NCBI GenBank assembly: GCA_027603945.1
Contig: JADIIU010000121.1
Span: 1 to 37,124, forward strand
DNA: 37,124 bases
Direction of reading: 5' to 3'
Origin: Terramyces sp. JEL0728
Taxonomy: Eukaryota > Chytridiomycota > Chytridiomycetes > Rhizophydiales > Terramycetaceae
The notes below the pieces were generated by a model, which saw nothing but the letters and a program-made list of their open reading frames with translations, made no database searches and was not told the DNA's origin. How positions within the stretch are numbered: position 1 is the first letter of the stretch; each line of letters begins with the position of its first letter. Shown in pieces: positions 290 to 36,346 of this stretch. Made by a program: the position numbers and the translations under genes.

Positions 290-1918
290 ATGACCGAAGT
301 TAAAGAGTTCCAAGAGAATTTAGAGGTAGAAAAGAAATTGGATGTTTCAAATGTCGAAGGTGGTAAGACCGAGGAACCAACTGATCACTTGGATTATGTT
401 GCTGTAAAATTAACTACATTTCAGTTTGTATCTGTATTTATTTCATTCGCCCTTGCTGTATTTTTGGGTATATAACGATTAATCCTAGTTTCTCTTGATG
501 GAACAATCGTCGCAACCGCAATCCCGGCAATTGGAGCTGAATTCCAAGCTTTTGATAAAGTATCTTGGATTGGTATTTCTTTCCTTTTGACTTCAACTGC
601 GTTATCTCCTGCCTATGGTGAACTGTGTAATATTTTTGGTAGAAAGCCCGTGTTTATGTTTGCTATTATTGTATTTGAAGTTGGGTCTCTGATGTGTGGG
701 ATTGCAACCTCTATGAACTTCCTGATTGCTGGCAGGGCTGTTGCTGGTATTGGCGGTGGAGGTATCTTTTCTTGCGTGCTGATTATGATTGCGGATATCA
801 CATCATTAAAGGAATCTGGCAAGTACCAAGGAATCATTGGCGCAGTCTTTGGATTGTCTAGCGTTATCGGACCTTTGTTGGGAGGGATCTTTACCGACAA
901 ACTTACTTGGAGATGGTGCTTCTATGTCAACTTGCCTATTGGAGGTATTGCTGCCATTGTTGTGTTCATGTACTTGACTTTTCCACCACCAGAAGGTTCA
1001 ATCAGAGAAAAATTGTACAAGATTGATTATATCGGTACTTTCTTTATTGTTGCTTCCACTGTCTTGATCTTGATTCCATTGGAATTAGGCGGATCTACCT
1101 GGGCTTGGAGTGAACCAAAAACAATCATCTGCTTTGTCGTTGGAAGTATTCTTGCTATTGTATTTGTTTACGTTGAATTCAAAATCGCAAAAGAACCAAT
1201 TATTCCACCAAGGCTATTCAATGACAGATCAGTTTCGCTTGCATTGTTGGCCGCTTTCCTTGTTGGATGTGCATTTATTCCACTCTTCTTTTATGTGCCT
1301 ACCTTTTTCCAACTTGTTGATGGAGAGAGTGCAACCTTATCTGGCTTGGAAAGTATTCCAATGATCTTTGGTTTAGTGCTTACTGCAACTGTATCTGGTG
1401 CTTTGGTCGGTAAACATGGTAATTACCGTGTTTGGTTCTTTGGCGGAGCAGTGTTGCTCGCTGTTGGTCTATTTTTAGTGTCCAGACTTGGCCCTGGTAC
1501 ACCCAAAGTATTACAAATCATATTTTTATTCATTGGCGGTCTTGGTGTTGGTTCAATCATCCAAGTCAGAGTTTACGCTGTCCAAGCTGGTGTAGAAAGA
1601 GACGACATTCCTTCTGGAACTTCAGCTTCCAACTTTTTCTTGAACTTGGGCGGTACTTTTGGTTTGGCAATCTTTGGAACTGTATTCAACAATGCTCTTA
1701 ATAGTTCCTTGGGTCCAGATATTGCGAAAATTGCTATAGGAAGTCCAACTACAATCAGAACTCTTCCTAATGCTGCTGATATTATCCAAGCTGTCAGTAA
1801 TTCCCTGAGCAAGTCCTACTACTTTCCAATTGCTGCAGCAGCTTCTATTTTAATAGTAGCTGCATTCGTTAGAGATAGAAAATTGGCTGACGGTTCTCCA
1901 GTTCATATGGCAGCTTAA
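290..1918 (+). CDS. MFS drug:H+ antiporter-type transporter (DHA2-like, 14 TM)
   Basis: Two exons (290-467, 489-1918) split by a 21-nt intron at 468-488 give a 535-aa protein. Exon 1 encodes a charged cytosolic N-terminus and the first half of TM1. Joining to exon 2 restores the typical TM1 sequence reading L-D-G-T-I-V-A-T-A-I-P. Without splicing, a TAA in the intron ends the frame. Visible family motifs are motif A (GELCNIFGRKP), AGRAVAGIGGGGIF in TM4, and motif C (GAVFGLSSVIGPLLGG) in TM5, the antiporter signature. Length fits fungal DHA2 exporters (about 550 aa). Known members export drugs or metabolites at the plasma or vacuolar membrane; the substrate here cannot be told. The start at 290 is the only ATG in frame with exon 1 and lies behind a TATA box. 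Confidence 0.93.
468..488 (+). other. 21-nt intron in MFS gene
   Basis: Starts GTATAT, has ATTAAT near the 3' end and ends TAG. The length is a multiple of three, but retention puts a TAA stop in frame (473-475). Homology of TM1 to MFS exporters fixes both junctions. Confidence 0.9.
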
Positions 1919-1937
1919 AATAGATATCTATACTTTG

Positions 1938-1943
1938 AATAAA
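1938..1943 (+). terminator. AATAAA poly(A) signal, MFS gene
   Basis: AATAAA begins 20 nt after the transporter stop codon (1916-1918). It is one of the longest such distances in the window. Confidence 0.5.
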
Positions 1944-6751: not shown

Positions 6752-7130
6752 TCATTCAACTTCTTCAATTGATTTACCATCTAGTACTCGTACAGTATTA
6801 GCAACAACAGTAACGCCTTTTTTACTATTATCCTCTGTCTGCCAGTACTTGAATTCCCCTTCCACAAGCACCATGCTCCCCTTACCCACACTTTTCAAAG
6901 ATCTAAGAGTGGTGACTGAATGCCACATTGTTTCCGTCTCATATTCATCTCCCCTTTTAATAGATTTCGTCGTTGCCATTGAAAATTTCCATGATCCTTG
7001 GTATTTCGAATCTTCTTTTGGATGATTGAACGGAACAAACTCTGGATTCTGTCCAATTCTTCCTACAAGAGTGACTTTGCTGTATACTGGATTAGTAAAA
7101 GGTACTTGATCGTCTAAACACTCGCAACAT
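6752..7130 (-). CDS. RIM1: Mitochondrial single-stranded DNA-binding protein
   Basis: Two exons (7130-7106 and 7086-6752) with a 19-nt intron at 7087-7105 give 119 aa. Exon 1 is only eight codons plus one base (MLRVFRRS) and supplies a short arginine-rich mitochondrial presequence. Exon 2 is an SSB OB fold: strand 1 KVTLVGRIGQNPEF, then ETMWHSVTTLRSL, GKGSMVLVEGEFKYWQ and a final strand VTVVANTVRVLDG. It matches the length of yeast Rim1/human SSBP1 without an acidic bacterial tail. The role is coating single-stranded mtDNA at replication forks. Without recognising the intron the protein would start at an internal Met and lose strand 1. The gene starts 30 bp after the stop of the upstream secreted-protein gene. 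Confidence 0.92.
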
Positions 7131-8672: not shown

Positions 8673-10310
8673 ATGTTGAAACTAAAAAACAGCTGTGATT
8701 ACTGTATAAAAAGAGTACTATTTATTAACGCAGAAAAGGAAATGCAGCAGAGAGAATCCCTGTGCGCTGTGTGTTTCAAAGGGGGAGCGGTGTGTTTACA
8801 GTTACTCGAAAATACAGTCCGTACAACAGCAAACGCAATATAACTTGGAGACAAGAATCAGGACTATTGAAATGTATCTACTTATCCCCTTCAAACATGG
8901 ATGGGAAAAACGGATATGCGAAATACAAGCAATACCTGGTAAAAAAGAACTGTCGGCCGCTCTAGAATACGACTTGTTTGAAAAAGAATATCCAGATTTA
9001 ATGAAATATGCTTTGGAAACGTTCGAGCCGGGATATTTGTACATTACTAGAGAATTTGTTGTCAAAGCGTCGAAAATATTCCCACCTTTGAGGTACACCC
9101 TCTACTGTAAAGGAGCCATGATGGTGAAACCTCATCAAATACCAAATGGAATATGCAATAGGATCGAATTGGCAGATATATTTCTTCAAAAGGCACTTAG
9201 CTATCCATTTTCTGAAGAGCAGACACCTTACTCTGTTTTTGCGTTAGCCACAATAGCTCTATATTCGTTCCGTAATTGCAATTAATGATAGAACTAGCTA
9301 AAGTTTTTAATCCACAAATGTTTCTCAAATTCGCTGTTATTATGGCCAAGGAAATAGGATTAAACACAGAGGAAGGAATAGAAAAACTATCAATAGATCC
9401 AAAAGAACAGGAGGGGTTTAGACGGATATGGTGGTTTACTTATAACGTATGTGCATATCTGTGGCAACACAATGAAGATATTATCGAATTTCACGACCAA
9501 AAATTATTGTTGCCCAGACTAGATCTCAGCACTGAAACCTACTACGGATTGGAAATCATGCAAAACAAGCTGTGGTTCACCCCTAGTTTTTCCATACGTG
9601 ATTTCTACTCACTTCGAGGAATAATGTGTAAAATCACAATTCAAATACACAACTATGTATTTGGGGAATTGTGCGGACAAATCAAGCAGGGACTATATAT
9701 AATTGGAAGTATTATTGGATCGTTAAACGAATGGAATCAGTCTGCAAAGCTGATATTTGATACCCAAGATGGACTGCTGCGGCAAAGCCCAAACAGAGAT
9801 TCAGAAATTAATTGGCCAATTATATTCATGCGAATACACTACCTGACGCAATACATTAATTTGATTAATCCCAGGATCTTGAAAACGATCCTGAAAAAGA
9901 AGCCTTTGAAGAGCGAGCTGTTTTACGCTGTTGCCCTCAATGCATCAATGGAAATCACCCAAATCCTAACTAGTATACTCAAAGTCCCAGATTCGTTCAA
10001 GGATTTCGATCCATATTTCGCAGTGCTTGTATTCGAATCAGCAGTTATTTTGCTATTGTCGGCAAAGGCATACCCATACATTGAATCCCACCAAACCTGT
10101 TTTGATCTGCACTGTACTGTGCTGCAAATGCATGCTATACGGCTGGAAAGAGAGCCTACTTTTTATAAAATACTGCAGAAACTTAAAGTGCTTGGGTTGG
10201 AAGATTTGACTTTAAAATATGGAGAGTTCAAAGCTGCCAATTGGCATATCAACTCACAGCCACCAAAGGTAGGGCTGAAAGCAATGGATATCCGGCAACT
10301 GATCAACTAG
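8673..10310 (+). CDS. Zinc-cluster transcription factor 1
   Basis: Three exons (8673-8714, 8734-9271, 9292-10310), introns of 19 and 20 nt, 532 aa. The Zn2Cys6 cluster is at C8, C11, C18, C24, C27, C34 (CX2CX6CX5CX2CX6C) with basic KRKRK between Cys2 and Cys3. A short heptad segment (LETRIRTIEMYLLIP) follows as a likely dimerisation linker. The rest is the middle homology region of fungal regulators, with FRRIWWFTYN in place of the family's ENxRR(I/L)WW. Intron 1 splits the zinc cluster and intron 2 splits a Gln/Arg codon near residue 180, as in most paralogues. The tail (NWHINSQPP...MDIRQLIN) puts it in the same subtype as the genes at 28.7-36.3 kb. It is predicted to be a nuclear DNA-binding regulator; targets are unknown. 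Confidence 0.9.
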
Positions 10311-10823: not shown

Positions 10824-12401
10824 ATGAAACTCAATAATACTTGTGATTACTGTATAAAAAGGGTAATTTTAATCTAACCAGAAACGGAAATGTACCAGGG
10901 GACATCCTTGTGCGCTTTGCCTGGACAAAAATGTAAAGTGTACATACTCATTTTCGAAAACCGAACTTAAGGATATTGAGGACTGGGATAGTAGGATCAG
11001 GAAGCTAGAGACGTTGCTGATTGTGCCGAGTCGCACCTGGAAGCAGGATATTAAACCACAAGAAGTAGTGTATACCTCTGTTGAACTGGAGCACTACCTG
11101 TTCAGCCAAGATCATGACGATCTACTGCAACTGGCTTTCGACAAGATTGATCAGTATTACTATTTTGTATCCGAGGATTATCTTCGGTTCAGTGCGAAAC
11201 AGTTTTGGCCGCTGCGATTTATCCTCTACTCTGCAGGAGCCATGTTTACTACAAATATACCAGCTGGAGTCACTAGGATAGAGATGGCAAACCTGTACCT
11301 GGACAAGGCTCTCTCTTTTCCTTTTATCCAAGAGCTTAATGTTTTGTCTGTGCTTACAGTGTCACTCGCTGTTTTGGCATTCTTTAGGCTGCAAAGGCCA
11401 GGTGGACACGATTATCTCCAACTAGCGATCAATCTAGCAAAGAACATTGGATTAAATAGCGAAGTAGGGATTGCAAAACTATCCCCTTTTGACTATGAAC
11501 GGGAAAATTACAGGTAGCGCATTTTTAATGCAGACGTATATGGTGGCTAATCTATTGGATGTATTCCCTATCTAGACGGCAAAATGAAGATATTATCGTT
11601 GAAAGCGATTTGAAATGTTTTCTGCCAGCCCACTTGACATTTCATGGGAAGCAAGATCAACATGGTATGGGAATCATGGCTAGCAGAGAATGGTTTACAG
11701 GCAGCATCCCGAATCTCAATCTGCAAGCTTACAGAATTTTGCTGGCGAAAATCCAAATTCGAATCAACAAATTCATACATGAACTACTAACAAAGGAATT
11801 AAACAGTGAGTTATACGTATTTGGATGTATAATTGGATCATTAAAAGAATGGTATGTGGTTTACGAGCCGATTTCTTCTAAATCAAAGTTTGAAATCAAA
11901 GCCAATCGATACCAAGATTGGATGATCGTCTACAACGAAGTCCATTACCACCACCTGTATGTCACAACCATCTTTCCGCTGTTGCTGCAGGACGTAATAC
12001 AGAGAAAAAAGATCCAGAAAAAGTTTTACTACCAGCAAGCTCTAGATATTACTCTCAACAATGCCGAAACTCTACTACTAATTATTCAGTACAACCCCAC
12101 ACTAAAGCATATTAATACATATATCGCAAACATGATTCTTGAACCAGCAATCTTTCTCTTGATTTCATCCAAAATTAATCCAAAAAAAGAAACGCAGAAA
12201 GCACTCAATATCCACTTGAAAATCCTAGAATTGCACGGAAAGGCTTTGCAAAGAGAGCCGCTCTTCTTGGAATTGATATTATATCTAACTGAGCTTAGTT
12301 TAGAAAACATTGCGATCCTATTTGGTGAATTTAGAGCAAACGATTCGCATCTCACTCTACAGCGACCAATTAATCTTGATTTCCATAAATTAAAGATATA
12401 G
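10824..12401 (+). CDS. Zinc-cluster transcription factor 2
   Basis: Three exons (10824-10862, 10882-11513, 11534-12401), introns of 19 and 20 nt, 512 aa. Zinc cluster: C7, C10, C17, C23, C26, C33. Linker WDSRIRKLETLLIVP. Intron 1 is at the family position inside the cluster, but the usual second intron is absent: the paralogous site reads straight through as FFRLQRP. A different second intron lies about 40 codons further on, inside the Arg codon of ENYR|RIWW. It therefore shows one intron loss and one apparent gain relative to the family. The C-terminus (FGEFRANDSHLTLQRP...KLKI) is closer to the 16-25 kb subtype. Its stop codon is one base from the stop of the convergent DUF1365 gene. Confidence 0.9.
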
Positions 12402-12402
12402 G

Positions 12403-13228
12403 TTACTTTATTTTTGGATTCTTGTAGTACATTTTCAGCTTGCGATAAATAAAGAATGCTTCGTAGCAAATTCGGAAAAAAGTACTTACTAGAGTGAATG
12501 GGAAAGTTATGAATGTAATCAACAGATTGAGCGAGTTGAATTCATATGCTACACCATTCACACGCGCAATCAACCATAATCCGTCTTTGACAAGTTCAAG
12601 CAAGACATCCATCTTTTCGTTTGGCTCAGTTACTGTACAATGATATTCTCCCTGCATATCGTTAAACGGTGAAACGTGCATACTTTTCTTGAACGCAAAA
12701 GTGCCTGCATTAACAACATGTACCTAGTGCGTTTGGCTTATCCCTTATCCTGGTGCTACTGTCGCAAATATACCATTCGCGATCTCTAAAAGTGTTGTTT
12801 ACTTCCAACAAAACGACAAGTTCTGACCCTTTGTAACAGTAAAACACATTCAATGGGTTGAATCCTATCCCGAGGAACCTTGGGGTAGTAACCATAAAGA
12901 TTTTTTCCACTCCTCCAATATTGAATTCTCTGAGTTTGTCTGCAATGCCTTCCTTTATCGATTTACCCTTAACTCCATAATCTGAATCGTATATTGAAAA
13001 AAGGTTGAAGCGGTTGAATGAAAATAGGTACGGCAGGTCGTTACAATCCAAATCTAGGCCAAAGTATATAACTGGGTATTTGAATTGGTGCTGCTTGGGA
13101 AGGAACCGCTTATGGAACGTTGTTGATATGAATAGCGAGTGAGTTTTTGATTTCCTTGTCAGTGGAATAAAGACAATTAGTAGTGGTAGAAAGTAGTACC
13201 ACATTGAAAAAAGTTTAATTTTCCGCAT
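12403..13228 (-). CDS. DUF1365 family protein
   Basis: Two exons (13228-12724, 12704-12403), 19-nt intron at 12705-12723, 268 aa. An N-terminal hydrophobic stretch (about residues 8-24) is probably a membrane anchor. The family core follows: HSLFISTTFHKRFLPKQHQF, then PRFLGIGFNPLNVFYC with the conserved F-N-P-L-x-V-F-Y, a V-x-N-T-F-R-D-R segment and, in exon 2, KSMHVSPFNDMQGEYHC. DUF1365 proteins occur in bacteria and fungi, often beside lipid-modifying genes, but the reaction is not established. A second hydrophobic segment lies near the C-terminus (LLITFITFPFTLVSTFF). The AATAAA signal lies within the last codons. The gene ends one base from convergent zinc-cluster gene 2. Confidence 0.88.
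12407..12412 (-). terminator. AATAAA poly(A) signal inside DUF1365 coding end
   Basis: The codons AAA-ATA-AAG just before the TAA stop contain AATAAA. Transcription must continue a little into the 3' end of the convergent gene. Confidence 0.5.
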
Positions 13229-14501: not shown

Positions 14502-15470
14502 TCAGCGATCCTGAGACTTCCATAAAGTAGGTTGGTTATTGCCAATCATTCGCGTCCTTACCAAAGATGCATTTGCACTTTGATTTGCGTTTTGATTTAA
14601 CATTACTTTAGCTGCTGAAGATTCAGGGGTATGGTCAGTAGGGAACAGACAATTTTGGCACACAAGAAATCTGTATGCGACTATCGATGGCATAACCTGG
14701 ATAAGAATATGCGCCGTATTACTTACAAGTGCCTGCTGTAGCGGGTCTTTGATGACCAACTTCAATGCAAATAGCAGAGTGCAGAGCACATCGTTGCACA
14801 TTATTACAACTGTCACATGCTTCAGTCTAGCGTACTTTTCGAGTGCTGTGGAAAAGCGTTTATTCTCTTCTTCATTTCCAAATCTTTTTTTAATATATGC
14901 GTGGATTGAGGTAATTACAATTGTTCCAATGGCAAGTTCAATTGCCACGCACGTAACATCAAATATCACTGCACATAACTTTTGAATCTAATTTAAGGAT
15001 TTGGGTACCAAGCCATAACGTTCTGTAACTAGAATATCCTGGGAATAAACAGCTGATATGTAGTAAATAATAACAGGTGCGTACCCTGCCAAAATACTCC
15101 ATATAATCCACACAATTTGAAGTTTGGACAGAGTTTCATTCTTTGCGGTAGTAATAACGCTGATTATTTTCAAGAAATCCATCTCGTAGTAACCTGTCAA
15201 TACAAACGTCGTGAAAAGAGTGATTCCGCAAATCATGAGAAACAGGTTTTCGTCGACTGGAAAGGCAAAATATGGAATGTACAGTGCTTGCGAGATGATG
15301 CAGGATGATAGGAGTAGATTCACTTTTAAATTGTACGACCCTTTTTTAAACACAGGACTGACTAGCGTGTACACCCAGAAAATGCCGGTTATTAACAGTA
15401 TGATAACTTGTGCAGTAAGTTGTATTTTGGTATATATGTTGTCGTAGCCGATATACTCCCGTTTGAACAT
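14502..15470 (-). CDS. Seven-helix membrane protein 2 (orphan GPCR-like)
   Basis: Two exons (15470-15009, 14987-14502), 21-nt intron at 14988-15008, 315 aa. It is a paralogue of the protein at 13359-14270, with the same seven-helix pattern and the motifs LTGYYEMDFLKIISVIT and AYRFLVCQNCLFPTD. The intron ends with an in-frame TAG, so unspliced RNA stops between helices 4 and 5. After splicing the reading GL-IQKLCAVIFDVTC continues into helix 5 and aligns with the paralogue. The cytosolic loop after helix 5 is basic and the tail is polar. A tandem duplication of this gene with its neighbour is clear; ligand and function are unknown. Confidence 0.82.
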
Positions 15471-21572: not shown

Positions 21573-21672
21573 CCGCTTGCAAGCAATATGGTGAATAAAA
21601 TTTGGGGAAAAAAGTCATTGCACATTTCCGAACATCAGCACTATTATTGGCAAAAGTAAAATCTGAATGCGG

Positions 21673-23685: not shown

Positions 23686-25309
23686 TTATTTTATTTTGAT
23701 ATCATTAAATTGATTTATGAGTACAGCTTGAGGTTTTTCAAACGCAACATCAAACTTTCTTGCTGAAAACTCTCCAAATTTCAAAACCGAGTGGTATAAA
23801 TCGATGCTGCGAAGGTGGACCAAGATGTTGTAGAAATTGTTTGTCCTCTGAAACGCTATGCCTTGCGCTAATAGTGATTCCAAGTGCAATTTATACGCAT
23901 CTTCAATTTTTGTGGTTGTTGTTTCGTGGATTTTCAGCATGCATTGCAGAAAAAACGCTGATTTAAATGTAAATTTAAATAATTGGGGATTTAAATGTTC
24001 CATTTGGGGGTTATACAGCTTGATTGCATTTAATATAGATGAATTGAATAATGTTGATTCTTGCGCTTCGCTGAAATACAGAGAATTCTGTACTTTTTTC
24101 CCCAATAACACATTTTTCATGAATTTGGGAAAGACCAGCTCCAGCACGTTATTATTATAGATTAGTATGGTGAATATCGCTAACCAGGACAGAGCCGGAT
24201 CTTTACATTTCTTTTCGAGGATAGAACTGTAATGGTTGCACATCTCCTTACGTACGCATTCAAACCATTCCCTAAGGGATCCACATAAACTGCCAAATAT
24301 ATATCCGGTATTAACTGGTGTATCTGACAATTCCATCAGGATGTATTTCTGGATGCGCAATCCTATTCGATGAAGTAGAATTCTGTATCCCATGACGGAA
24401 TTCTTGGTTACGCACGGAGTAAACCACTCTGAATTCTGCATAATCTCTTTACCAAAACTTTCAGCGTCAGAATCGGCTTTGAAATACGTATTTGAAGGAA
24501 GGTAAAGCTCGAAATCTGTCTCGCTAAATAGTTCTAATCCAAACCATCTGGTCATGGTGCTATATATGGTAAATAAAAACCACCATATTCTCCGTATATT
24601 TTCTTGTTCATAATCAAAACATGTTAAAAGTGCTATTCCGCTTTCGGTATTCAGCCCTATGCTTTTCGCAACTTGTACGGCAAGTTTGATATAACGATAT
24701 CCATCACTTCGATCCAGCCCTACTATTAGAAAATCGTACTGAGGTATGCAGACCCTATTTCGGTCAATGCAAGGACGTGCAAATGATCTGGACTGGTAAA
24801 GAGTTTAAATGTGAGCGCTTTCTTGATGTATGCTAGTGACATTTCCAATCGGTTGTCTAATCCTTTAGGAACCATTTCAGGAGTGGCAAAAAGGCTACCT
24901 GAAGCACACAAAGCATATTGCAATGGCCAAAACACTCTGGCTGAATTCCTATAGTACTCTTCATCTATGTAATTCAGCATTCCGGGGAATTTCTGAAATC
25001 TTAAATCTATCAGCAAATCAATGTTTGCAAACAAAATTTCCTCCATATCTGCAGTAAGAGAAACTTGCGGTGTGTTCTCTGTTATCCGATTTATCCCTCT
25101 TGAGTATTTCCAGGGTATGATTAATTGCATTTCCAATTTTTTAATCCGGTCCTCAATGTTGACATACCTATCAATAACTTGTTGTTTGGAAAGATATATG
25201 CATCTGATGCCTCGTTGGACACAGTTAGTACACGGCAATGTTCGCGAGCACCGCTGCTTCTGGAGTTAATGGAAAATACTTTTCGAATACATGCTTCACA
25301 GGATTTCAT
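23686..25309 (-). CDS. Zinc-cluster transcription factor 7
   Basis: Three exons (25309-25280, 25259-24740, 24719-23686), two 20-nt introns, 527 aa. Exon 1 MKSCEACIRK; cluster C4, C7, C14, C20, C23, C30. Linker IEDRIKKLEMQLIIP; middle region CFDYEQENIRRIWW. Intron 2 ends CTAATAGTAG: the distal AG gives YLRLDRSDG as in the paralogues, while the proximal AG (17 nt) is also in frame and would give YLIGLDRSDG. It is the most 5' gene of the 16-25 kb block and the near twin of gene 6. AATAAA lies inside the final codons. Confidence 0.91.
23690..23695 (-). terminator. AATAAA poly(A) signal inside zinc-cluster gene 7 end
   Basis: The codons AAA-ATA-AAA immediately before the TAA stop contain AATAAA. 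Confidence 0.45.
24720..24739 (-). other. 20-nt intron with in-frame tandem acceptor
   Basis: Ends TAGTAG. Both acceptors keep the reading frame (17- or 20-nt intron), changing R to IG at one position. Confidence 0.75.
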
Positions 25310-25802: not shown

Positions 25803-26501
25803 CTTTCCTCAAAGAATCCAGTCGCGCTTGTAAATCATCTTGCTCTACGGCTTTTTCCTTGACCAACTTTCCTGCAGGCGCTTCAGCCATCTACATTAGA
25901 AATCAAATACGGATTGGTTCAAATCAATACCAATTTCATCCAACACCTGATTCAAAATTTGATCACTTTCTTCCTCGTCATTGTCATCTTCCATCGTATC
26001 ATCAATAGCATCATTCATCAACTCTTGTTTCATATCCATCATCTCTGATTCTCTCTGAAAGTCCATCATTATCTTTGAGATTTGTGGCAGATTCACACCT
26101 GGATTAACACAACAAACCTTTGTTCATTGAAGCCAAAGCTTTTGTAACTCCTTTCATTGCATCCGCCATTTGCTGGTTGGATCTAAACGTCTGTATTAGA
26201 TTGGGTTACTTGTATTTGAAGCGCGATCGCCTGTACCTGGGTTCTGGTCTGATAAAACTTTTGGATATACCGTCTTGTTCTTACTAAATCCTTTGCCATA
26301 ACTTTACATGCACCCTTGTTACTATTAATCTACCATTTGCCCTTGCTTGGCAGTTTTTTTAATATCTGCAACGAGTTTCTTTTCCTGTTGCTCCAATTTT
26401 GTTCGCTCTCTGTCCAGATCCCTTTGCGCCTTATTTAGAGCCCTTTGATTTTGTTTTAATAGCTCTGCTGGAGTCTTTCTTGAACCAAATAAAAAGTCCA
26501 T
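25798..26501 (-). CDS. VPS2: ESCRT-III subunit Vps2 / CHMP2
   Basis: Five exons with four introns of 19, 19, 19 and 20 nt (26315-26333, 26191-26209, 26099-26117, 25891-25910) give 208 aa. The spliced product is colinear with CHMP2A/Vps2: start MDFLFGSRKTPAELLKQNQR, then GQMGACKVMAKDLVRTRRYI, MADAMKGVTKALASMN, LPQISKIMMDFQRESEMMDM and ESDQILNQVLDEIGIDL. The last exon supplies a C-terminal MIM1 motif (DDLQARLDSLRK), which binds the MIT domain of Vps4. It acts on endosomal and other membranes in ESCRT-III filaments. The last exon would be lost without recognising intron 4, as a TAA follows within it. It starts 40 bp from divergent SPB4. Confidence 0.96.
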
Positions 26502-26541: not shown

Positions 26542-28279
26542 ATGCAATTACAGAATATTGCAAATGCCGGGGAGTGGACTGGATTGAATCCTACCATCAA
26601 ACAGACTTTGCTGCACCACGGATATTCTCAAATGACACCAGTGCAAGCATCCGTGATTCCATTATTTTTGTCCTACAAAGATGTATTTGGATTTAATGAT
26701 AGGTGGTTGTTGAGGCAGTTACTGGATCAGGAAAAACTCTTTCGTTTGTGATTCCGATACTAGAAATGTTGCTGCGTAGATATCAGCAGGGCCGTCCTTT
26801 GAAAAAGAATGAAATTGGAGTAGTCATAATTTCTCCAACCAGAGAATTAGCACAGCAGATTCATAAAGTAATGACCCCATTTGTCGATGCGTTGAACGAC
26901 GATGAAAACTGTGTCGTTAAGGAAGGAATCAGGCATTTGCTATTTATTGGGGGAAATGACACCAGAGAAGATGTCAAATTATTCAACCAGAAAGGTGCTC
27001 AGATAGTAATTGGAACTCCTGGAAGGCTGGATGACTTGTTCAAGCGCAGTACCATCTTTAATACAAAGGAGGTAGAAGTGCTGGTGATGGGTAAGTGGAT
27101 ATAATCGTAGATGAAGCAGATAGATTATTAGATATGGGGTTTGAAGTACAACTGACTTCGATTATTAGAAAGATTCCTAAACAAAGGAGAACTGGACTAT
27201 TCTCTGCAACAATGACGGAAGCTCTTACCAAATTAGTGAAAGCAGGACTCAGAAACCCTGTTAAAGTGCAAGTCAAAGTACAATCCAATGATGGAGAGAT
27301 GATTAGTGAACAAAAAGTACCTTCTACACTAGAAATGTTTTATTTGATCGCCAAGCCAGAAGAGAAGACCGCCAGACTGATTAGTATATTAAAAAATCAC
27401 AAGGAAAAGAAATTTATTATTTATTTTGCAACTGGAGCTTTGGTGGATTTTTACTACAAAATATTAAAGAATATTGAAGAAGTCAGAGATATGAGTTTTC
27501 ACTCATTGCATGGGAAGATGGTTACAAAAAAGAGGGAATTGACTTTTCAAAAATATAGTCAGGGCGGGCCTGGAAGTGTGCTTATTTGCACCGATATTGC
27601 TGCAAGAGGTTTAGATCTACCCGATATTGATTTTGTAATTCAGTATGATGCTCCGCAAGATCCAAAAGCATTTGCTCACCGCTGCGGTAGAACAGCTAGA
27701 ATTGGACGGGGTGGGCAGGCGGTGATAATGTTGAATGAAAATGAATCCACATATGTTGAATTTTTAGATATTCGCAAGCTATCAACAAAAGAATATCCGG
27801 ACGAAGGAGGTGTTTCGACAAGCGCAATATTGCTGCAGATCAAAGATATGGTAGTCGGCGATAGGGATATTTACGACAAGGTAATTTTTATTAATGTTAG
27901 AGTATAAAAGCCTTTGTAAGTTTTGTAAGAGCGTACAAAGAACACCAAGCAAGTTATATTTTCCAAATCAAAGAATTGGACTTGGGAGCAGTAGCCAAAT
28001 CAATGGGTATTCCAAGACTGCCGAAAATGCCAGAACTAAAGCAGCTACAGATTGGATTTGAACAGGAAGGCGTTAATGTACTTTTTGTTAATATAGGTTG
28101 ATGAAATTGAATACAAGGATAAACAGAGAGAGCAGCAAAGGCAGGTAAAGAGAGCCAACGCCCAACCAAAAGTATACAAGCCAAAATCCATTCCATGGTC
28201 CGAAAAGAAAGAACAAAAGGAGAAACGAACAGAACGCAAACTAAAGAAAGAAAAACGACGCATCGCCAAATCAAAGTAA
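26542..28279 (+). CDS. SPB4: DEAD-box RNA helicase Spb4 / DDX55 (ribosome biogenesis)
   Basis: Five exons with four introns (26683-26702, 27091-27110, 27881-27900, 28078-28096; 20, 20, 20, 19 nt) give 552 aa. Motifs in order: Q motif MTPVQASVIPL, motif I AVTGSGKT (completed only by removing intron 1), Ia PTRELAQQ, Ib TPGR, II DEAD (split by intron 2), III SAT, V TDIAARGLD, VI HRCGRTARIGRGG. After the helicase core comes the Spb4-specific KAFVSFVRAYKEHQASYIF and MGIPRLPKMPELK region, then a Lys/Arg-rich tail. Spb4 acts in the nucleolus in maturation of the 60S subunit. I chose ATG 26542; the frame extends a little upstream without another ATG. Stop TAA at 28277-28279. Confidence 0.96.
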
Positions 28280-28674: not shown

Positions 28675-30297
28675 CTAATTTATTAAATGGTTAATATCAA
28701 TTTTACGCTGTTCAGGCAGCGGTTGCTGAGAATTAATATGCCAACTGGAGGCCTTGAATTCACCAAATCTGAGCGCAACGTTTTCAATATCAAATTCTTC
28801 CAAGCATTTCAGGATATTGTAAAAAGTCGGTTCTCTGTTGAACGCCTTTGCCAGTTTGATTAGAATTTCATAGTGTATTCCGAGGCTCCGTTTGAACCTT
28901 CCAACTCCAATGAGCTTTAATTTTAGAGCGCAGAGTAGGATGAATGCGGATTCCACAATTAGCACTGGGATGTAAAGATTCCAATGTTTAAATACCGACG
29001 GAGAGTCTTTTACATATGATAGTATATTGCCGACTTGTATCGCCGCCTCTACGCCGTCCATAAAGAAGGCACTATTCTGAACCTTTTTCCTCGATAGGAT
29101 AAGTTTCAGCGCTTTCGGTAAGATCGCTACAATTTTCAGACAAAGAAGGTATACTTTTGTGACAATGACCAGCCAAGTTACTTTGGGGTTATTGATTGCT
29201 TTCGCTTTTATCTTTTGTTCATGAAGGTTAAATTCCTGCTTCATATTCCGTTCAAGGTCGCGAAGAGATGCCAAAATTGTAGACAGAGCTAGGGTTCCAT
29301 CGGGAAAGACATTTGAGAGCTCTTGGAAGCTGTATTGGTTGATCCGTATCTGTATTTTTGCTAATATCACCCGGTAAGCTTGGAATGAAAGCCCATTGAC
29401 GGATGGAGTATGCCACTCTCCACTGTTTACAATCTGCCTTGCAAATTGCTCGTTCGATGTGCGCTCCGCCCGATTAGAAGGCAAATGAACGTCAATTTCT
29501 GCAAAATCAATAAGCTCTTCATTGTTCTGTCTGCATATACCGTAGAATTGGAATATAAACCAAAACACACACCTATAATCTTCTTTTTCTTGATCATTTT
29601 TGGCCAGGTTGTCGATGCCTGCTTCCTGTTGAAGGCCAATGTTCTTTGCAACTTGAATCGCGTATTTCAAGTACAGATAGCCATTCGGTTTTTGTAGCCC
29701 TAGATTAACCAAATGTACTGAAATTAGTCACTGCAATATAGACTAATGTGAGTGCGCCATGGATGGAGCGTTCGCTAATAAACGGAAAGGCTTCGGCTTT
29801 CAGCAGGTAGATGTTTGCCATTTCTAAGCGATTTCGTACACCCTGGGGTATCGTGGTTGTAAATAGTGATCCAGTTGCACATAGACAGTGATACAATGGC
29901 TTGAAACTCAAAGCTGCATTTCGCAAAAAATCTTCTCGGATATATAACTGTGCTGTGTTAAATCTACTTATCCCAAGTTCTAACAGATGAGGATTTTCTT
30001 TATCAAATAACTCGCACTCCATTTCGGGTGTTAAGACCAGAGGAGACAGTCCGGTTTCCAAGTCTGGTATTTTTCTCTGCCAAGCGTGTTGGTAAGGAAC
30101 AATTAGTAGCACTTCCAGCTTTCTTATTCGATCGTCCCACTCGTTCATTTGAGGCCCTTTAACAGAGGTGCTATATCTGCAATCCATTGATTTTTCGTCG
30201 CATAGATCGCATGGATTGCCGCGGCTACACTTTCGCTTCTAAATTAGTCGTTAGATACTCGTAATATGCAATAGTCGCATGTATTGTTTTGCTTCAT
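28675..30297 (-). CDS. Zinc-cluster transcription factor 8
   Basis: Three exons (30297-30259, 30238-29719, 29699-28675), introns of 20 and 19 nt, 527 aa. Exon 1 is MKQNNTCDYCILR; cluster C7, C10, C17, C23, C26, C33. Linker WDDRIRKLEVLLIVP. The middle region has DQEKEDYRCVFWF where paralogues have ENxRRIWW, so the RR is replaced by R-C and the first Trp by Phe. C-terminus FGEFKASSWHINSQQPLPEQ...DINHLIN defines the subtype shared with genes 1 and 9-11. It is the first of four head-to-tail genes on this side of SPB4. AATAAA is embedded in the LIN-stop codons. Confidence 0.9.
28679..28684 (-). terminator. AATAAA poly(A) signal within LIN-stop codons, gene 8
   Basis: TTA-ATA-AAT-TAG encodes Leu-Ile-Asn-stop and contains AATAAA. 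Confidence 0.5.
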
Positions 30298-30558: not shown

Positions 30559-32202
30559 TTAATTTATTAATTGGCTGATATCCACTGGCTTAACTTCCGA
30601 TTTAGGCTTTTGAGCAGTATAATGCCAGTAAACAGACTTGCACTCCCCATATTCTAGCGCGATTTGCTGTGATTCGCAACTTTCTAAATGTTTCAGAATA
30701 TTGTAGAAATTAGATTCTCTATTGTATGTTTTCGCATGGAGATTGAGAATGGTGTAATGGCTTTCCAAGTACTGCTGGATTTGCTCGTTTGTATATTTCA
30801 ATGTTGCCTTTGGTTTCTTGTGCTTTAAAGTGCAGATCAAAATAAACGCAGATTCGAGTATTAGTAATGGAAAGTAGGTATTTAGATATTCTATCGAATC
30901 CGGGTTGGATATAAATAGATCCAATAGCATCCCGTTTTCCATTGCAGCATCAACCGCTTCTTTGAAATAAAGTCCATTGTGAATCTTCTTGCAAGTCAAA
31001 ATACTCTTCAATATCTTTGGATTGAGCAATATTACTTTTAAACAGTTCATTTGGATCATACAAAACAATATGATCCAGGTTTTCTGTGGATTTACGATAT
31101 TTCCGTCCTTGACTGTTTTGATTTTATGTTGAAATAATTCATTTGCGCTATCCTTCAGGTCATTGATTGATGATAATACAGTCCCCAAGACATAATTTGC
31201 GTTTGGGAGGGTGTTGCTTAGTTCGTTATACACATATTTATCGACTTTAATTTGTATCCGTAGCAATAGCACACGATACGCTTGAAAGTGAAGTCCTTTT
31301 GCACTGGGAGTGTACCAATTGGGACTCTGCATCACCTCCTGCGTATAATAATCCGGTAATTTTTCTTCTATAGAGCTAGCTACTGGTAAAAACAAATTAT
31401 TTTCATCACTTGCAATGATATCCTCGTCGTTTTTCCGTCCGACTGCATATCCTTGAAATATGCACCACCATATCCTTCTATAATTTTCCTTTTCCCACTC
31501 ATCAAGAGTCAATTTTTCGATTCCATCTTCTGTATTCAGCCCAATACTTTTTGCGATTATTGCTGCGTACTTTAGATATAACAGTGCATTGTTCTTTTGC
31601 AAACCTAGGTAAAGCAGTGCTTACGAAAACAAGTTATGGCGATATGGTTTAAAGTAAGAGCTGCGTCTGGCGATCTATCGTTGATGAAGGGATGGCTGGC
31701 GCTCTTTTCAAGGTATATATTCGCCAATTCGACTCGGTTGCGAACAAAAGGTGGTGTGTATTCAACAAACAAGGCCCCATTAGCACACAAGACATACATT
31801 AGCGGCTTGAACCGTTGACAGGCTAGCCGCAAGTAATCTTCCATCACAAAAAAGTAGTGAAATTTGAACTTTTTGAAATATATTTCCAGCAGCGCATCTA
31901 AATTTTTGTCAAAGAGTCGCTGCTCTAATTCTGAAGAAAAAGAAACTGTCTCAGGCAGGTTCCTGTTGTTTTTCTTTGCCCAGTCTATTTTATGTGGTAT
32001 CAACAGCATAGATTCCAGTGTTCCTATCCGAACTTGCCAATTTACAATATCCTGCGGGTAATACCTTGAAATGCTGTAAACGCAAGGGACGTCTTTCGAT
32101 TTACATAGAACACAAGGCTGCTCTCTGTTGCACTTTTTTTTCTAGCTGTCAAGATCTACTTACTCGTTGGATACATAAATCGCAGGTATTGTTGTATTTC
32201 AT
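30559..32202 (-). CDS. Zinc-cluster transcription factor 9
   Basis: Three exons (32202-32164, 32141-31625, 31604-30559), introns of 22 and 20 nt, 533 aa. Exon 1 MKYNNTCDLCIQR; cluster C7, C10, C17, C23, C26, C33 with QRKKK between Cys2 and Cys3. Linker WQVRIGTLESMLLIP is weaker as a heptad than in paralogues. Middle region EWEKENYRRIWW. Intron 1 contains an early AG (GACAG) four bases before the used CTAG; the early site would be out of frame. Intron 2's branch region is atypical (TTTACC). C-terminus YWHYTAQKPKSEVKPVDISQLIN. Confidence 0.9.
30563..30568 (-). terminator. AATAAA poly(A) signal within LIN-stop codons, gene 9
   Basis: TTA-ATA-AAT-TAA encodes Leu-Ile-Asn-stop and contains AATAAA. 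Confidence 0.5.
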
Positions 32203-32454
32203 TTTGTGTCTGGCTTGCTTTTTTTCGGGGAAGAGGACGGAAAAAAATCCGTTGGGGAAAAATAGCTGAACGATGAAGTAAATACAAGCGGGAATAGGGG
32301 AGCGCTAGCTAGCAGTCTAATGGGATATGCCCCCTGCACTATTTGTTATATCTAGCGTATTTATAGCAGTTACGTCACTAACGTGATTATGAGTAACTAT
32401 GAATCATCAATAACATAATTAGTCCGCTACACTTGATTTTATTCTATATTAAAA

Positions 32455-34104
32455 TCAATCAATTAATTGGCTGATGTCTACAGTTTTTACTTCAGGTTTA
32501 GGTTTTTGCGCATTGAAATGCCAGTTTTCCGCTCTAAGCTCCCCATACTTTAGAACTATAAATTCTGGATCCAAACCTTCCAGATACTTCAAGATATTGT
32601 AAAACGTGCATTCTCTGTTGTACACCGTAGCTAGTCGCAGCAGAAACTGGTAGTGGATATCCAAGCATTCCAGCAGTCTGTCCATGGGATATGTGCTATT
32701 TTTGCCAGGCAAGCTCAACTTTATTGTGAGCAGCAGTATAAAAGCTGATTCCAAAGTCATTACCGGATAGTACGTGTTCAAGTATTCTTCAGATGACTTA
32801 TTTTGAATGAAGCATTCAATCACATTTGCATTATCAATCGCTGCACTGACCGCGTGTTCAAAGTAAATTCCAAACCGGACCTTCTTTTTGCAGAGCACGT
32901 TTTTTAATATATTCGGGTTTAAAACTGAGAGTTTGATGTAATTAAAGTAGACATTGGTATATAGCACAATCCATGTTGTTTCTGGTTCGCAAATAGTTGC
33001 GGATTTGACTTTTTCAATATGATCTTCAAATATACTTTGTACGTTGTATTCGAATTCGTTTAGCGACGCCAATATCGACGCAAGAGCGTAGCTTGCGTTT
33101 TTCATCCCACCAGCCAATACACTGAATATGTATTGATCAGTTTGGATTTGAATTTTATGGAGGATTACTTTGTACGCCTGAAAGTCCAGCCCGCTGAATG
33201 TGGGAGTAAACCATTCATTTCCAGACATTGTGTCTATTCCAACGTAATCCAGGGCCGAATGTGGGGTTGTTGTGCCAAACGGTCTCGGCAAAAAGACTTG
33301 GTTTTCGCTAAACAGAGCCAGATCAGTATTATTAATACGTGCTACAGCGTAAAATTGATAGACGAACCACCATATTCGCCTGAAATATTCCTGTTCATCG
33401 GGATCACAAGTAATTTTCGCAATTCCTTTTTCTGTGTTCATCCCCAAGCACCTTGCCATAGTTACCGCATAGTTTAAATATAGTAAATGGTTTCCCTTTT
33501 GTAATCCTACATTAACACTTGAATTACTGAATGTTGCTATCGCAATGTGGGTGAGGGTTAAAACAGATATCGGAGATTTTTCCGTCACAAATGGGAAGCT
33601 AGCTGCCTTTTCCAGATATATGATGGCCAGCTCCACCCTGTTTAGCACTCCAACAGGTGTGCGATCAATAAATATGGCGCCGTTTGAGCAAAAAACGTTT
33701 TTCAACGGTTCAAATCTGTTGGCCGACTGGCGGAGATATTCTTCTGGCAGATAGAAATAGTTCCAATTGTATTTTCTGAAATACAATTCCATTAGATAGT
33801 CATGGTTGTCGATAAATAATGTCCTCTGGAGTTTTTCTGAGAGTACAAGTTCGTCGTGAGCAGCTGGAATCCGCTTTTCCCATGGATATTTATATGGGAC
33901 AATTAGAAATACTTCCAGTTTCCGTATTCGTTCCTCCCACTGTCTGATATCTGACAATTCGAGTTTTCCTAATGTGTAGTGACAATCTGCGTTCCTAGAT
34001 ACACAATAACTACAGGGATGCTGCCTATTGCACTTTTTTTTCTAAATATTTAGTTGTATATCTACCCTCTGTATACAGAAATCGCAAGTAATATTATACT
34101 TCAT
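32455..34104 (-). CDS. Zinc-cluster transcription factor 10
   Basis: Three exons (34104-34066, 34041-33528, 33506-32455), introns of 24 and 21 nt, 534 aa. Exon 1 MKYNITCDFCIQR; cluster C7, C10, C17, C23, C26, C33. Linker WEERIRKLEVFLIVP; middle region EQEYFRRIWWFVY. Intron 1 (24 nt, the longest here) ends with an in-frame TAG. Intron 2 (21 nt) has no in-frame stop, so retention would add seven residues (SNSSVNV) and replace the Arg codon; removal gives TFRLQKGN as in paralogues. C-terminus NWHFNAQKPKPEVKTVDISQLID. The TTAATTGATTGA end has no AATAAA. Confidence 0.9.
33507..33527 (-). other. Stop-free 21-nt intron
   Basis: GTAATT start, GTTAAT branch-like motif, GTAG end. The only intron here whose length is a multiple of three and that contains no in-frame stop. 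Its position equals intron 2 of eight paralogues. Confidence 0.8.
34042..34065 (-). other. 24-nt intron (longest in the window)
   Basis: GTAGAT start, ACTAAAT branch-like region, TTTAG end. Removal restores the zinc cluster (CIQR|KKKC). Phase 0, the last triplet is TAG. Confidence 0.85.
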
Positions 34105-34703
34105 TTTAAAAAGCAAAAAACCCTTAATTTTCGTTTTAGGGGACGCGCGGGTGGATATTGGCATCCGCCTCTTAATACTCGGAACCCAAAAACAAAAAAT
34201 GGCCCAAAGCGGCACAAACACATAACAATGGAGTGAAGCGTCTCGAATCTTCCATCCCGTTGTTCTCCACTCCGCATCTTGGACCTTGTCTAGGTTGCAG
34301 CCTGATTAAACCTGAGCTGCGTTTGAATCGCGGGAAATTCGCGGAAAAATAATATCTCTACAGCCAAAAGCATAACAAATAAAAGGAGACTGCCAGTTTC
34401 AACAATTTGAACTTTTTTTGCTTGTTTTATCGTCCTATCACTGATCACTGCTAATTTGATTTCAAAAGTTTTCTTGAAAATTTGGCTCGTATTTTGAGAC
34501 ACCCGAATATCTGGATTGTGCTGCGCTGGCCCCGAAATAGAGTGGAAATTAACGTTGAATCAACAATACTACATTTGGCAACTATTTCTGTTTTTTGTCA
34601 AACTCCAGTAATATTGAACCATCTTGGTGTAGCAGATTGCATACCACCCGATCCGTCCCAAAAATCTTCAATCCCCAATTGAAACAAAAAGTTGGGTTAC
34701 AAA
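34105..34703. other. Intergenic region between zinc-cluster genes 10 and 11
   Basis: About 600 bp. A 70-codon minus frame (34290-34502) with one hydrophobic stretch is present but has no family resemblance or poly(A) context; not called. No RNA gene seen. Confidence 0.4.
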
Positions 34704-36346
34704 CTAATTTATTAATTCACTAATGTCAACAATCTTCTTTTCTGGCTTGGGCTTTTGCGAATTAAAATGCCAATTGGATGCTTTTAGTTCACCATACCGC
34801 AACGCCAATTGTTCAGAGCTGAAACTTTCCAAGTCTCGTAATATATAGTGGAACGTCGGCTCTCTATTGTACGTCGTTGCGTGTAAGAGCAGAATCTTGT
34901 GGTGAATGTCAAGACAGGCTTGTAGCTGCTGTTGCGAAATATTGAAATAACTCTGTGGAACTATTTGCTTTATACTGCACAGCAAGATGAATGCAGATTC
35001 AAGCACCAATACAGGAAAGTAGGTGTTCAAGTACTCCAGAGACCAAGGCTTGGCTAGGAATAGCTGGATTAGCTGCGCATTCAGAACAGCAGCGTCCAAC
35101 GCTTCTTTGAAATATATCCAAGAGCACGCTTTCTTTTTCACAAGTATATGCTTGAGTAATTTAGGGTTGATTACATTGATTTTCATGCAGTTCATTTTAA
35201 TATTTGCAAATACTATCACCCAGGTAACTTTTGGATTCGTGATGGCATTGGCGACTATTTGGGAAATATGATTGGCAAATATATGGCTTGAGTTGTAGAT
35301 TAATTCTTTAATTGACGAAATGATACAACCAATAGCGTAATTTCCATTCCAACTGTTGTTACATAGTTCACTGAAAATATATTTGTCTATTAGCACACTG
35401 ATTTTTGATGAAATTACCCGATACGCTTCAAAGTTCAGCCCTGGCACGCTTGGTGTATACCAACTTTCATCTGATACGATATCCACGAGATAATGATCGG
35501 TAACGCCGTGGGAAATTGGGGTATCCAAAGATTTGGGTAGAAATACTTTGTTGTCCGACGAGAGTATTATTTCCTCACTGTTGCGTGAAACAGAAAACGA
35601 TTGATACATGAACCACCATATTCTTCTGATATTTTCCTTTTCCATGTCATTTGACGACAATTTCGCTATACCATCCTCGGTGTTAATCCCAACTTTTTTC
35701 GCTACCAGGACCGCATACTGGAAAAATACCTTTTCAGAGCCATTTCGCAGTCCTACGTTTAAGAGTAATATTACTAAAGCTTGCCAAGGCAATATGTCCT
35801 AAAGTTAATGGAGCTAGGGGAGATGTTTCTGTCATAAAATTGAAGCTTGCAGCTTTTTGAAAATATAGATTTGCTAACTCCAGCCTGTTTTTAATCCCAA
35901 CCGGAGTGGATTCCGCAAATAATGCTCCATTAGCATACAAGATATACTTTAGAGGTGGAAAGTTACGAGCTCCTTCCCTCAGATATTCTTCCGTCACATA
36001 AAAATACATCCAGTTAAATTTTTGAAAGAATGATTCCAATAGATAATTATGGTCCTGTTCAAATAACTCCTTTTGTAGTTTTTCCGTCAGGTTGAATTCC
36101 ATTGCCTTGGACGGTATACGTATTTCCCAGCTGTATTTATATGGTACTATCAGCAGCAGTTCAAGCTTGCGGATACGATGCTCCCATTTTGCAATATCGG
36201 AAGCTTCTAATTTTCCATACGAATAGTGACAGTTTTCATTCCGAGAAATACAATAACTGCAAGGATGTTCCCTGTTACATTTCTTTTTCTGGGTTAATAA
36301 TACTTACTCTTTGGATACACAAATCGCAAGTAGTGTTTATTTTCAT
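34704..36346 (-). CDS. Zinc-cluster transcription factor 11
   Basis: Three exons (36346-36308, 36288-35775, 35752-34704), introns of 19 and 22 nt, 533 aa. Exon 1 MKINTTCDLCIQR; cluster C7, C10, C17, C23, C26, C33, very close to that of gene 10 (PCSYC(V/I)SRN). Linker WEHRIRKLELLLIVP; middle region DMEKENIRRIWW. Removal of intron 2 turns an otherwise open but divergent reading into SFRLRNGSEKVF. C-terminus NWHFNSQKPKPEKKIVDISELIN. It is the most 5' gene of the 28.7-36.3 kb block. Confidence 0.9.
34708..34713 (-). terminator. AATAAA poly(A) signal within LIN-stop codons, gene 11
   Basis: TTA-ATA-AAT-TAG encodes Leu-Ile-Asn-stop and contains AATAAA. Confidence 0.5.

Follow-up and report, generated by a model that had tools for sequence, protein, structure and literature searches.

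Are the segments of some 20 nt that interrupt the genes of this locus spliceosomal introns, and are they the ordinary introns of the organism that carries them? The window, i.e. the whole analysed stretch of 37,124 nucleotides, is a contig of the 15.0-Mb assembly of Terramyces sp. JEL0728 (Chytridiomycota, Rhizophydiales), and the host is thus a fungus, as the sequence-only reading had supposed. Introns of about 20 nt are far shorter than usual in fungi and lie below what the human splicing machinery is thought to handle. The answer reached here, held with high confidence, is that U2-type (major) spliceosomal introns have shrunk to a near-minimal, almost fixed size throughout the genome, a reading based on the length distribution, the motifs, the frames and conserved residues restored by splicing, and on U2 snRNA, Prp8, SF1, U2AF65, Slu7 and Prp18.

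The introns of the window were listed from motif-guided gene models, in which intron density is about 1.9 per kb of coding sequence, and then corrected by homology. The resulting 33 introns comprise 11 of 19 nt, 14 of 20 nt, five of 21 nt, two of 22 nt and one of 24 nt. The 33 introns of 19-24 nt of the sequence-only reading were all reproduced with identical length counts; its outer limits, 468 and 36307, are intron ends, and the examples that it had named in SPB4 (26683-26702), mtSSB (7105-7087) and VPS2 (four introns) proved exact. As for the intron ends, 32 of the 33 are GT-AG and one is GC-AG (21533-21513), the donors being GTA in 31 cases, GTT in one (26117-26099) and GCA in one.

Exact removal of the introns brings back conserved residues in SPB4, Prp8, VPS2, Prp18 and the zinc clusters. 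The SPB4 helicase gene (plus strand) carries three 20-nt introns at 26683..26702, 27091..27110 (where the DEAD box is restored) and 27881..27900, and one of 19 nt at 28078..28096, in a weakly conserved stretch. At or near these four junctions, gaps occur in 2, 1, 3 and 6 of 120 aligned rows, respectively, with insertions in one row at the third and three rows at the fourth. NCBI has a Terramyces sp. JEL0728 protein with which the spliced SPB4 product shares 100% identity; at least in this gene, the introns, the first and the fourth included, are therefore in agreement with the public prediction. In the VPS2/CHMP2 gene (minus strand), the spliced product aligns without gaps to human CHMP2A over 147 residues, across the junctions of three 19-nt introns at 26315..26333, 26191..26209 (for which the gene finder had picked a 46-nt version) and 26099..26117 (the one starting with GTT), while a fourth, of 20 nt (25891..25910), lies outside the CHMP2A match and was placed by the frame to the stop. 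Elsewhere in the assembly, the six Prp8 junctions, of 19-22 nt, show gaps in 1/102, 2/112, 6/74, 2/46, 0/39 and 0/8 covering rows, with insertions as well in 6/74 rows at the 22-nt junction, and no alignment gap was seen at the 20-nt intron of Prp18.

Four further genes of the window contain a single listed intron. The MFS transporter gene (290-1918) has one of 21 nt (468..488, plus strand) whose removal joins the MFS frame, the spliced protein scoring 163.7 bits to MFS_1. On the minus strand, the 19-nt intron of the DUF1365 gene (12705..12723) is supported by a spliced protein that matches DUF1365 with 201.1 bits over profile positions 2-234 of 235, and that of the mtSSB-like gene (7087..7105) by a 35-bit match to Pfam SSB. 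A 21-nt intron in a membrane protein gene, seven-helix receptor-like by eye, was placed by frame (14988..15008, minus strand). A similar neighbouring gene (13359-14270) is a single open frame without a Pfam match.

The remaining introns belong to 11 Zn2Cys6 paralogues (A to K), each of which has an intron in the zinc cluster. The C-x2-C-x6-C spacing is restored in all 11, and in eight of them a single GT/GC-AG pair was shown to give it: A (8715..8733, 19 nt) and B (10863..10881, 19 nt) on the plus strand, and C (17846..17865, 20 nt), E (21513..21533, 21 nt, the GC-AG intron), H (30239..30258, 20 nt), I (32142..32163, 22 nt), J (34042..34065, 24 nt) and K (36289..36307, 19 nt) on the minus strand. 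In D (19597..19617, 21 nt), F (23247..23265, 19 nt) and G (25260..25279, 20 nt), all on the minus strand, splicing likewise restores the spacing. For paralogue E, a GT-AG version called by the gene finder (17 nt + 16 nt) was rejected, as it breaks the zinc cluster spacing; a 50-nt version was called in paralogue C, and an extra 15-nt call in paralogue H was counted among the wrong junctions.

A second intron is found in ten paralogues. Frame and comparison with the paralogues, by eye in the case of A, place those of A (9272..9291, plus strand, 20 nt) and, on the minus strand, of D (19051..19070), E (20961..20980), F (22704..22723) and G (24720..24739), all of 20 nt, H (29700..29718, 19 nt) and K (35753..35774, 22 nt). 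In B the position differs from that in the other paralogues (11514..11533, plus strand, 20 nt), and the frame and the restored ENYRRIWW support it. The second intron of I (31605..31624, minus strand, 20 nt) was set by eye from the paralogues, the gene finder having picked a 26-nt version (31630-31605). That of J (33507..33527, minus strand, 21 nt) rests on the paralogues by eye and on the motif, because it is in frame without a stop and the frame cannot prove it.

Could such segments stem from faulty sequencing or assembly, or could the genes that contain them be pseudogenes, so that there are no introns at all? The assembly does contain near-identical duplicated stretches, but random errors would not have GTA, YTAAY and AG in common, nor would their lengths pile up at 19-22 nt, the interrupted genes Prp8, VPS2 and SPB4 are otherwise intact, and a first intron set was obtained without the branch motif; the explanation is accordingly held to be highly improbable. 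Between near-identical copies, two introns differ in length by one base (20/21 nt) while the exons stay in frame; substitutions number 4/239 in introns, a figure from 239 bases only, 60/7263 in exons and 29/1698 outside genes.

Whether this size is general was addressed with a gene finder that uses no branch motif, allows all lengths from 10 to 400 nt equally and is cross-trained. Its input was the window together with 20 other stretches of the assembly (193 kb), about 230 kb of the 15 Mb in total. For GT-AG, 42 introns of 19-22 nt were called vs. 1-8 (mean 3.8) for 13 control dinucleotide pairs, and the excess is confined to this class, no other length class rising above the controls: 22 vs. 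22-44 at 31-60 nt, 19 vs. 22-35 at 61-100 nt and 106 vs. 108-133 at 101-400 nt. A first motif-free run, not cross-trained, gave 59 such introns vs. 3, 4, 4 and 7 in four controls. As had been suggested, tiny introns of spliceosomal type are the rule in this fungus wherever its sequence was examined.

The motif-guided models place 396 of 447 calls at 19-22 nt, a count that is partly circular. These models fuse neighbouring genes via false long introns and have some junctions wrong; they were kept for counts with that caveat. A plain scan of the window for GTA...YTAAY...AG returned 100 matches of 15-30 nt, compared with 53.7 +/- 8.1 after first-order Markov shuffling, and 25 vs. 4.8 at 19-20 nt, but it was not used as proof because nested alternatives inflate the matches. 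A test on lengths that are multiples of three was dropped, as the gene finder is blind to in-frame 21-nt introns without stops.

It is unlikely that the tiny introns are one class only, with ordinary-length fungal introns coexisting and missed. Scattered longer calls speak for such a mixture, namely 28 of the 447 at 26-58 nt when lengths up to 60 nt are allowed and more with lengths to 400, most of them unchecked, as does the coverage of the motif-free examination, about 230 kb of 15 Mb. Against it, GT-AG stays within or under the control range for all classes longer than 30 nt, SPB4 and Prp8 yielded ten introns, all of 19-22 nt, and five checked long calls (VPS2, 46 nt; paralogue C, 50; paralogue I, 26; Prp18, 56; a kinase, 83) were wrong and resolve to 19-20 nt.

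In the preferred reading of a single, shrunken U2-type class, the introns share one layout: GTA, a T-rich stretch with little G at +5, approximately a YTAAY pentamer, and 4-5 nt ending in AG. In 45 of the 59 motif-free introns, in whose detection the branch motif played no part, a YTRAY is separated from the intron end by 4-5 nt, compared with a mean of 2.5 and a maximum of 9 in 1000 interior shuffles. The putative branch A, assigned from the motif, is intron nucleotide 14 or 15 in 48/59 introns of this set and in 28/33 of the window; 5 or 6 nt are left before the intron end, hence the lengths of 19-21 nt, and the distance from the donor is 13-14 nt. The pentamer starts after 10-11 intron nucleotides in 42 of 48 placeable introns, in line with the spacing of about 10 nt between donor and branch point noted earlier. 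The consensus GTA-YTAAY-AG of the sequence-only reading describes most introns, the exceptions being the GC-AG intron, the GTT donor and seven of the 33 that match only four of the five YTRAY positions. U12-type (minor) introns have a ATATCCTT-like donor; among the 33 introns of the window no U12-type donor was found, none being ATATCC- or GTATCCTT-like.

Removal without a spliceosome, by an endonuclease and ligase, DNA elimination or ribosome skipping, might be invoked since the human donor-branch minimum, about 50 nt in the excerpt used of PMC6692369, far exceeds the 13-14 nt seen here. This has very little probability: the ends are GT/GC-AG, the branch pentamer is complementary to the intact GUAGUA box of U2, both GC-AG introns seen (the second one in Prp18, outside the window) have AAGT at positions +3 to +6, in accordance with pairing to U1, and introns of 15-21 nt are spliced in ciliates, nucleomorphs and mikrocytids (excerpts of PMC9505925 and PMC10245619).

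Concerning the machinery that would excise such U2-type introns, five of the six protein factors searched for are present in the assembly, i.e. Prp8 (2310 residues, the N-terminal part being lost where the assembly stretch begins), SF1, U2AF65, Slu7 and Prp18; Prp8, SF1 and U2AF, which had been named beforehand for inspection, are among them, U2AF by U2AF65; the U2 snRNA is canonical, with its GUAGUA branch box intact. RED_N was not found in a search without a positive control and is not used as an argument for this reason; U1 and U6 snRNA were not found in weak searches with candidates partly scored, and none of the three results shows absence. Two loci with Rfam U6 matches of 27 bits were rejected, lying inside a protein gene model (VMP1-like by eye), two loci picked out by pattern gave nothing in Rfam at E values of up to 1, and the U1 pattern candidates were discarded because a backward control matches as often as the pattern. 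The earlier suggestion of spliceosome miniaturisation therefore finds no support in the five factors and the U2 snRNA: it is the intron that is reduced, and the spliceosome is not miniature as far as tested. In yeast, Slu7 and Prp18 are dispensable when the branch is near the 3' splice site (PMC10711555, excerpt); both being present, the Terramyces machinery shows no adaptation of the kind that one might expect.

Excision of the introns would follow the ordinary two steps, through a lariat loop of 14-15 nt. Because the helices at donor and branch come close to touching, the intron is probably read as a single unit, and there would be space neither for the usual extended U2/branch helix nor for a pyrimidine tract 3' of the branch. 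The human B complex, by comparison, has about 52 nt between donor and branch and a 14-nt U2/branch helix (excerpt of PMC6692369). It is possible, although we lean slightly against it, that largely conventional splicing proteins here work almost solely on introns too small for the helices at donor and branch to exist side by side in the known pre-catalytic geometry. The whole intron would then be recognised as a unit, U1, U2 and U6 would bind in a different order or shape, and the position of the 3' cut would depend largely on its distance from the branch. The last element is proposed because one intron of a MARK-type kinase gene (outside the window) keeps the usual register but has TG in place of the terminal AG (GT-TG).

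Known short-intron systems are compared here from excerpts of the papers cited. The introns of the ciliate Stentor coeruleus (15-16 nt; PMC9505925) resemble those of Terramyces in their near-fixed length, GU-AG ends, fixed branch A position and AU-richness, and in the conserved U2 branch box and Prp8; the commonest one, GUAAUUUUUAUAUAG, is similar to Terramyces GTAATTTTTATTAATGTTAG. The Terramyces introns are, however, about 4-5 nt longer, with the branch A at nucleotides 14-15 vs. 10-11 and a clear branch pentamer where Stentor has no strong consensus, and Slu7 and Prp18, given as N/A in the Stentor table, are present in Terramyces (PMC9505925). Cwc25, in its plug, and Isy1, at its N-terminus, are also different in Stentor (PMC9505925). 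Chlorarachniophyte nucleomorphs have many introns of 18-21 nt (PMC10245619), an equally narrow and nearly equal range, but in a relic endosymbiont genome as opposed to a 15-Mb fungal nuclear genome. Uniform tiny introns are also shared with the parasitic mikrocytids (16-17 nt), whose spliceosome is much reduced (17-19 proteins; PMC10245619), whereas Terramyces has five of the six protein factors that were sought. Paramecium and Nyctotherus (about 25 nt; PMC5014332) and the type B introns of Trichomonas, which has few introns (23-25 nt; PMC12316389), show a short, narrow class as well, although longer and in other lineages.

Ordinary fungal introns are spliceosomal and GT-AG like those of Terramyces, which have about one third of their length: the mean is 63 nt in Cryptococcus, and chytrids are intron-rich, according to the excerpted survey of 644 fungal genomes (PMC8476143), whose excerpt names no fungus with introns near 20 nt. 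No paper on tiny introns in chytrids was among the literature matches listed, few subscription papers or bioRxiv preprints being covered. Ciliates, a relic endosymbiont nucleus and mikrocytid parasites are known to have introns this small, which are here the norm in a fungus. As this fungus keeps Slu7, Prp18, SF1 and U2AF65, intron shrinkage is separated both from genome reduction and from the loss of those factors, and the minimal donor-branch distance, with the changes that enable it, can be tested among relatives of the best-studied spliceosomes. In fungi of this kind, software for gene finding or alignment may go wrong where it assumes the usual minimum intron length. In Globomyces, DEADR is missing from the public SPB4 protein exactly at the position of the second Terramyces SPB4 intron, and on this evidence the state of about 20 nt may extend to sister Rhizophydiales.

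The introns of 19-24 nt that the sequence-only reading had placed in the window were recovered in a list built from reading frames, paralogues and homology, with the same total (33) and identical length counts: 11 of 19 nt, 14 of 20 nt, five of 21 nt, two of 22 nt and one of 24 nt. Their hosts are an MFS transporter, an mtSSB-like, a DUF1365, a receptor-like (by eye), a VPS2 and an SPB4 gene, as well as eleven Zn2Cys6 transcription-factor paralogues. One intron is GC-AG and one starts with GTT, and that at 33527-33507, in frame and stop-free, was placed from paralogues and motif alone. The putative branch A, assigned by motif, lies at nucleotide 14 or 15 in 28 of the 33 introns and is followed by 5 or 6 nt in 29; in seven, one of the five YTRAY positions is mismatched. 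The assembly holding the window (contig C121) comprises 15,016,339 bases in 231 contigs; Terramyces, a free-living organism, belongs to the Chytridiomycota, Rhizophydiales, Terramycetaceae (taxonomy record).

At the level of single junctions, the SPB4 gene (26542-28279) was compared in an alignment of 120 proteins that includes the Terramyces record itself: a gap occurs within two residues of junctions 1-4 in 2, 1, 3 and 6 rows, respectively, and the rows with an insertion number 0, 0, 1 and 3. Taking out the second intron brings back the DEAD box. The spliced product shows 100% identity across 552 residues to NCBI HDV01_001060, a 'hypothetical protein' of Terramyces sp. JEL0728; as this protein is not obtainable from unspliced DNA, these introns are in accord with the public annotation, for SPB4 at least. 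The nearest other named match (63%) is the public SPB4 of Globomyces pollinis-pini, where DEADR is missing exactly at Terramyces intron 2 and homology is lost shortly past the position of intron 4, a hint that tiny introns may have been mis-annotated there. As for VPS2, each frame is broken when unspliced, and the spliced protein aligns without gaps to residues 1-147 of the human CHMP2A chain, spanning three of the four junctions.

Outside the window, the Prp8 gene has six introns (20, 19, 22, 21, 21 and 21 nt), with junction gaps in 1/102, 2/112, 6/74, 2/46, 0/39 and 0/8 covering rows; the 22-nt junction also has insertions in 6/74 rows, and one displayed row (P0005) carries a long insertion starting a few residues upstream. 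The Prp18 gene (locus L044 of the same assembly) contains a 20-nt GC-AG intron at which the alignment to yeast Prp18 is gapless, and which replaced a 56-nt gene-finder call. Concerning the Zn2Cys6 family of the window, a pattern picked up 8 of its 11 paralogues, and in each of these exactly one GT/GC-AG pair restores C-x2-C-x6-C (19, 19, 19, 24, 22, 20, 21 (GC-AG) and 20 nt), and introns of 21, 19 and 20 nt restore it in the other three. The spliced zinc-cluster region of one paralogue matches Gal4 chain 3coq (E = 2e-4), and another spliced paralogue scores above the Pfam thresholds of both Zn_clus and Fungal_trans. The eleven genes are clustered in the window, at 8673-12401 (+), 16277-25300 (-) and 28675-36346 (-); the zinc-cluster intron occupies the same place in all eleven, and a second intron is listed in ten.

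A plain motif scan of the window gave 100 matches against 53.7 +/- 8.1 expected, a figure that includes nested matches, and a motif-free gene finder was therefore used to test against chance. Its inputs were coding statistics and the two end dinucleotides only, every length from 10 to 400 nt being equally likely. Over the window and 20 stretches (193 kb), 59 GT-AG introns of 19-22 nt were found vs. 3, 4, 4 and 7 for four control dinucleotide pairs. When the run was repeated with 13 control pairs, and with scoring confined to sequence on which the coding model had not been trained, the counts were 42 vs. 1 to 8 (mean 3.8). No GT-AG excess over these 13 pairs appeared in any other length class: 11 vs. 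2-20 at 10-18 nt, 7 vs. 5-15 at 23-30 nt, 22 vs. 22-44 at 31-60 nt, 19 vs. 22-35 at 61-100 nt, and 106 vs. 108-133 at 101-400 nt. The branch motif had been withheld from the gene finder that gave the 59 introns, and YTRAY stands 4-5 nt from the end in 45 of them, vs. a mean of 2.5 and a maximum of 9 in 1000 shuffles. With the motif included and lengths up to 60 nt allowed, a partly circular setting, 396 of 447 introns predicted in 296 kb measure 19-22 nt. The 20 stretches, which were placed arbitrarily, several near kinase, Prp8 or U2 matches, and are not a random sample, have introns of 17-24 nt in 95 of 130 gene fragments; the motif-guided models give 298 of them, or about 1.9 for each kb of coding sequence.

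The motif-free introns are 71% AT, with A at +3 in 86% and at +4 in 49%, T (54%) or G (10%) at +5, and T at +6 in 69%; in the window, +5 is G in 7 of 33. GTANTT has thus for the most part replaced the usual donor, GTAAGT. Unlike the GT-AG introns with their GTANTT, both GC-AG introns (window 21533-21513 (-) and Prp18) start with GCAAGT, as if U1 pairing offset the C at +2, an observation that is suggestive, though not proof, of a canonical U1 5' end. A pyrimidine tract is missing behind the branch, where 5-6 nt are left, and a T-rich stretch sits before it.

Three pairs of near-identical segments (98.0-98.9% identity) occur in the assembly: L046 (G000:C199)/L047 (G000:C111), L002/L003 and L004/L005, either unmerged haplotypes or recent duplications. 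Between copies, substitutions affect 4/239 sites in short introns, 60/7263 in exons and 29/1698 in other sequence outside genes. Two introns differ in length by one base (GTAAATGTTTGCTAACGATAG / GTAAATGTTGCTAACGATAG and GTAATTTTGCACTAATTTCAG / GTAATTTGCACTAATTTCAG), and the indels scored in exons comprise a single base at the edge of a locus and a run of eight where a gene ends. Small as these numbers are, the differences point in the direction expected of spliced-out sequence. L004 and its near-copy L005 (G000:C44) carry a MARK-type kinase gene (418 bits to human MARK1), in which taking out GTAATATATCGCTAACCCTG yields a gapless match to human MARK1 over 255 residues. This candidate intron of 20 nt, from locus position 2192 in both copies, has a CTAAC branch in the usual register and ends in TG; the junction comparison covered this version and an 83-nt GT-AG call, which deletes conserved residues and was rejected.

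The spliceosome parts tested are conventional. The assembly encodes Prp8, Prp18, Slu7 (modelled introns of 20, 20 and 21 nt) and SF1, with SF1-HH split over two exons. U2AF65, likewise present, reached 251.7 bits vs. a cut-off of 310.3 in an intron-blind search, its first two RRMs giving 212 bits vs. human U2AF65. The U2 snRNA (140.2 bits, GUAGUA box intact) was found easily in the same assembly where Rfam and word-pattern searches gave neither U1 nor U6, apparent U6 matches gaining no better support on closer look; these results are not read as absence, and neither is the failure to find RED_N in a search that had no positive control.

With introns of fixed size and donor, branch and acceptor in few registers, we infer that the major spliceosome removes them via a lariat loop of 14-15 nt and a tail of 5-6 nt, vs. 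10-11 and 5 in Stentor according to PMC9505925. PMC6692369 states that human extracts need about 50 nt from donor to branch, and that the 14-nt U2/branch helix of the human B complex implies about 52 nt. This distance is 13-14 nt in Terramyces, so that a U2 helix as long as the human one would collide with the donor itself. Shorter helices and a more compact complex might accommodate it; alternatively, U1, U2 and U6 might bind in another order. A U1 that is readily displaced would fit the weak +5, and a 3' cut placed mainly by distance would fit the kinase intron that ends in TG. In yeast, Slu7 and Prp18 are described as dispensable if the branch lies near the 3' splice site (PMC10711555), and a Stentor table marks both as N/A (PMC9505925), whereas Terramyces retains both, which argues against the simplest form of such a rule.

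Ultrashort introns are already known as a kind, from Stentor, the nucleomorph, mikrocytids and Paramecium; those of Terramyces are notable for their lineage and conventional parts list, and among the matches listed, in open-licence literature only, there was no report of tiny introns in chytrids.

Other features of the window include a protein of 932 aa encoded without introns (2166-4964 (+)), which has the P-loop GSSGIGKT, whose only Pfam matches, AAA_22 and TPR_15, are weak and below cut-off, and which presumably resembles Crinkler-type NTPases. Two very similar fragments, at 15586-16116 (-) and 36652-37122 (-), resemble, by eye, the C-terminal region of GH16-type glucanases; the former had no match in a Pfam search. 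Finally, a predicted, secreted-looking protein built of TTPCAEDLAVVA-type repeats lies at 5642-6160 (+).
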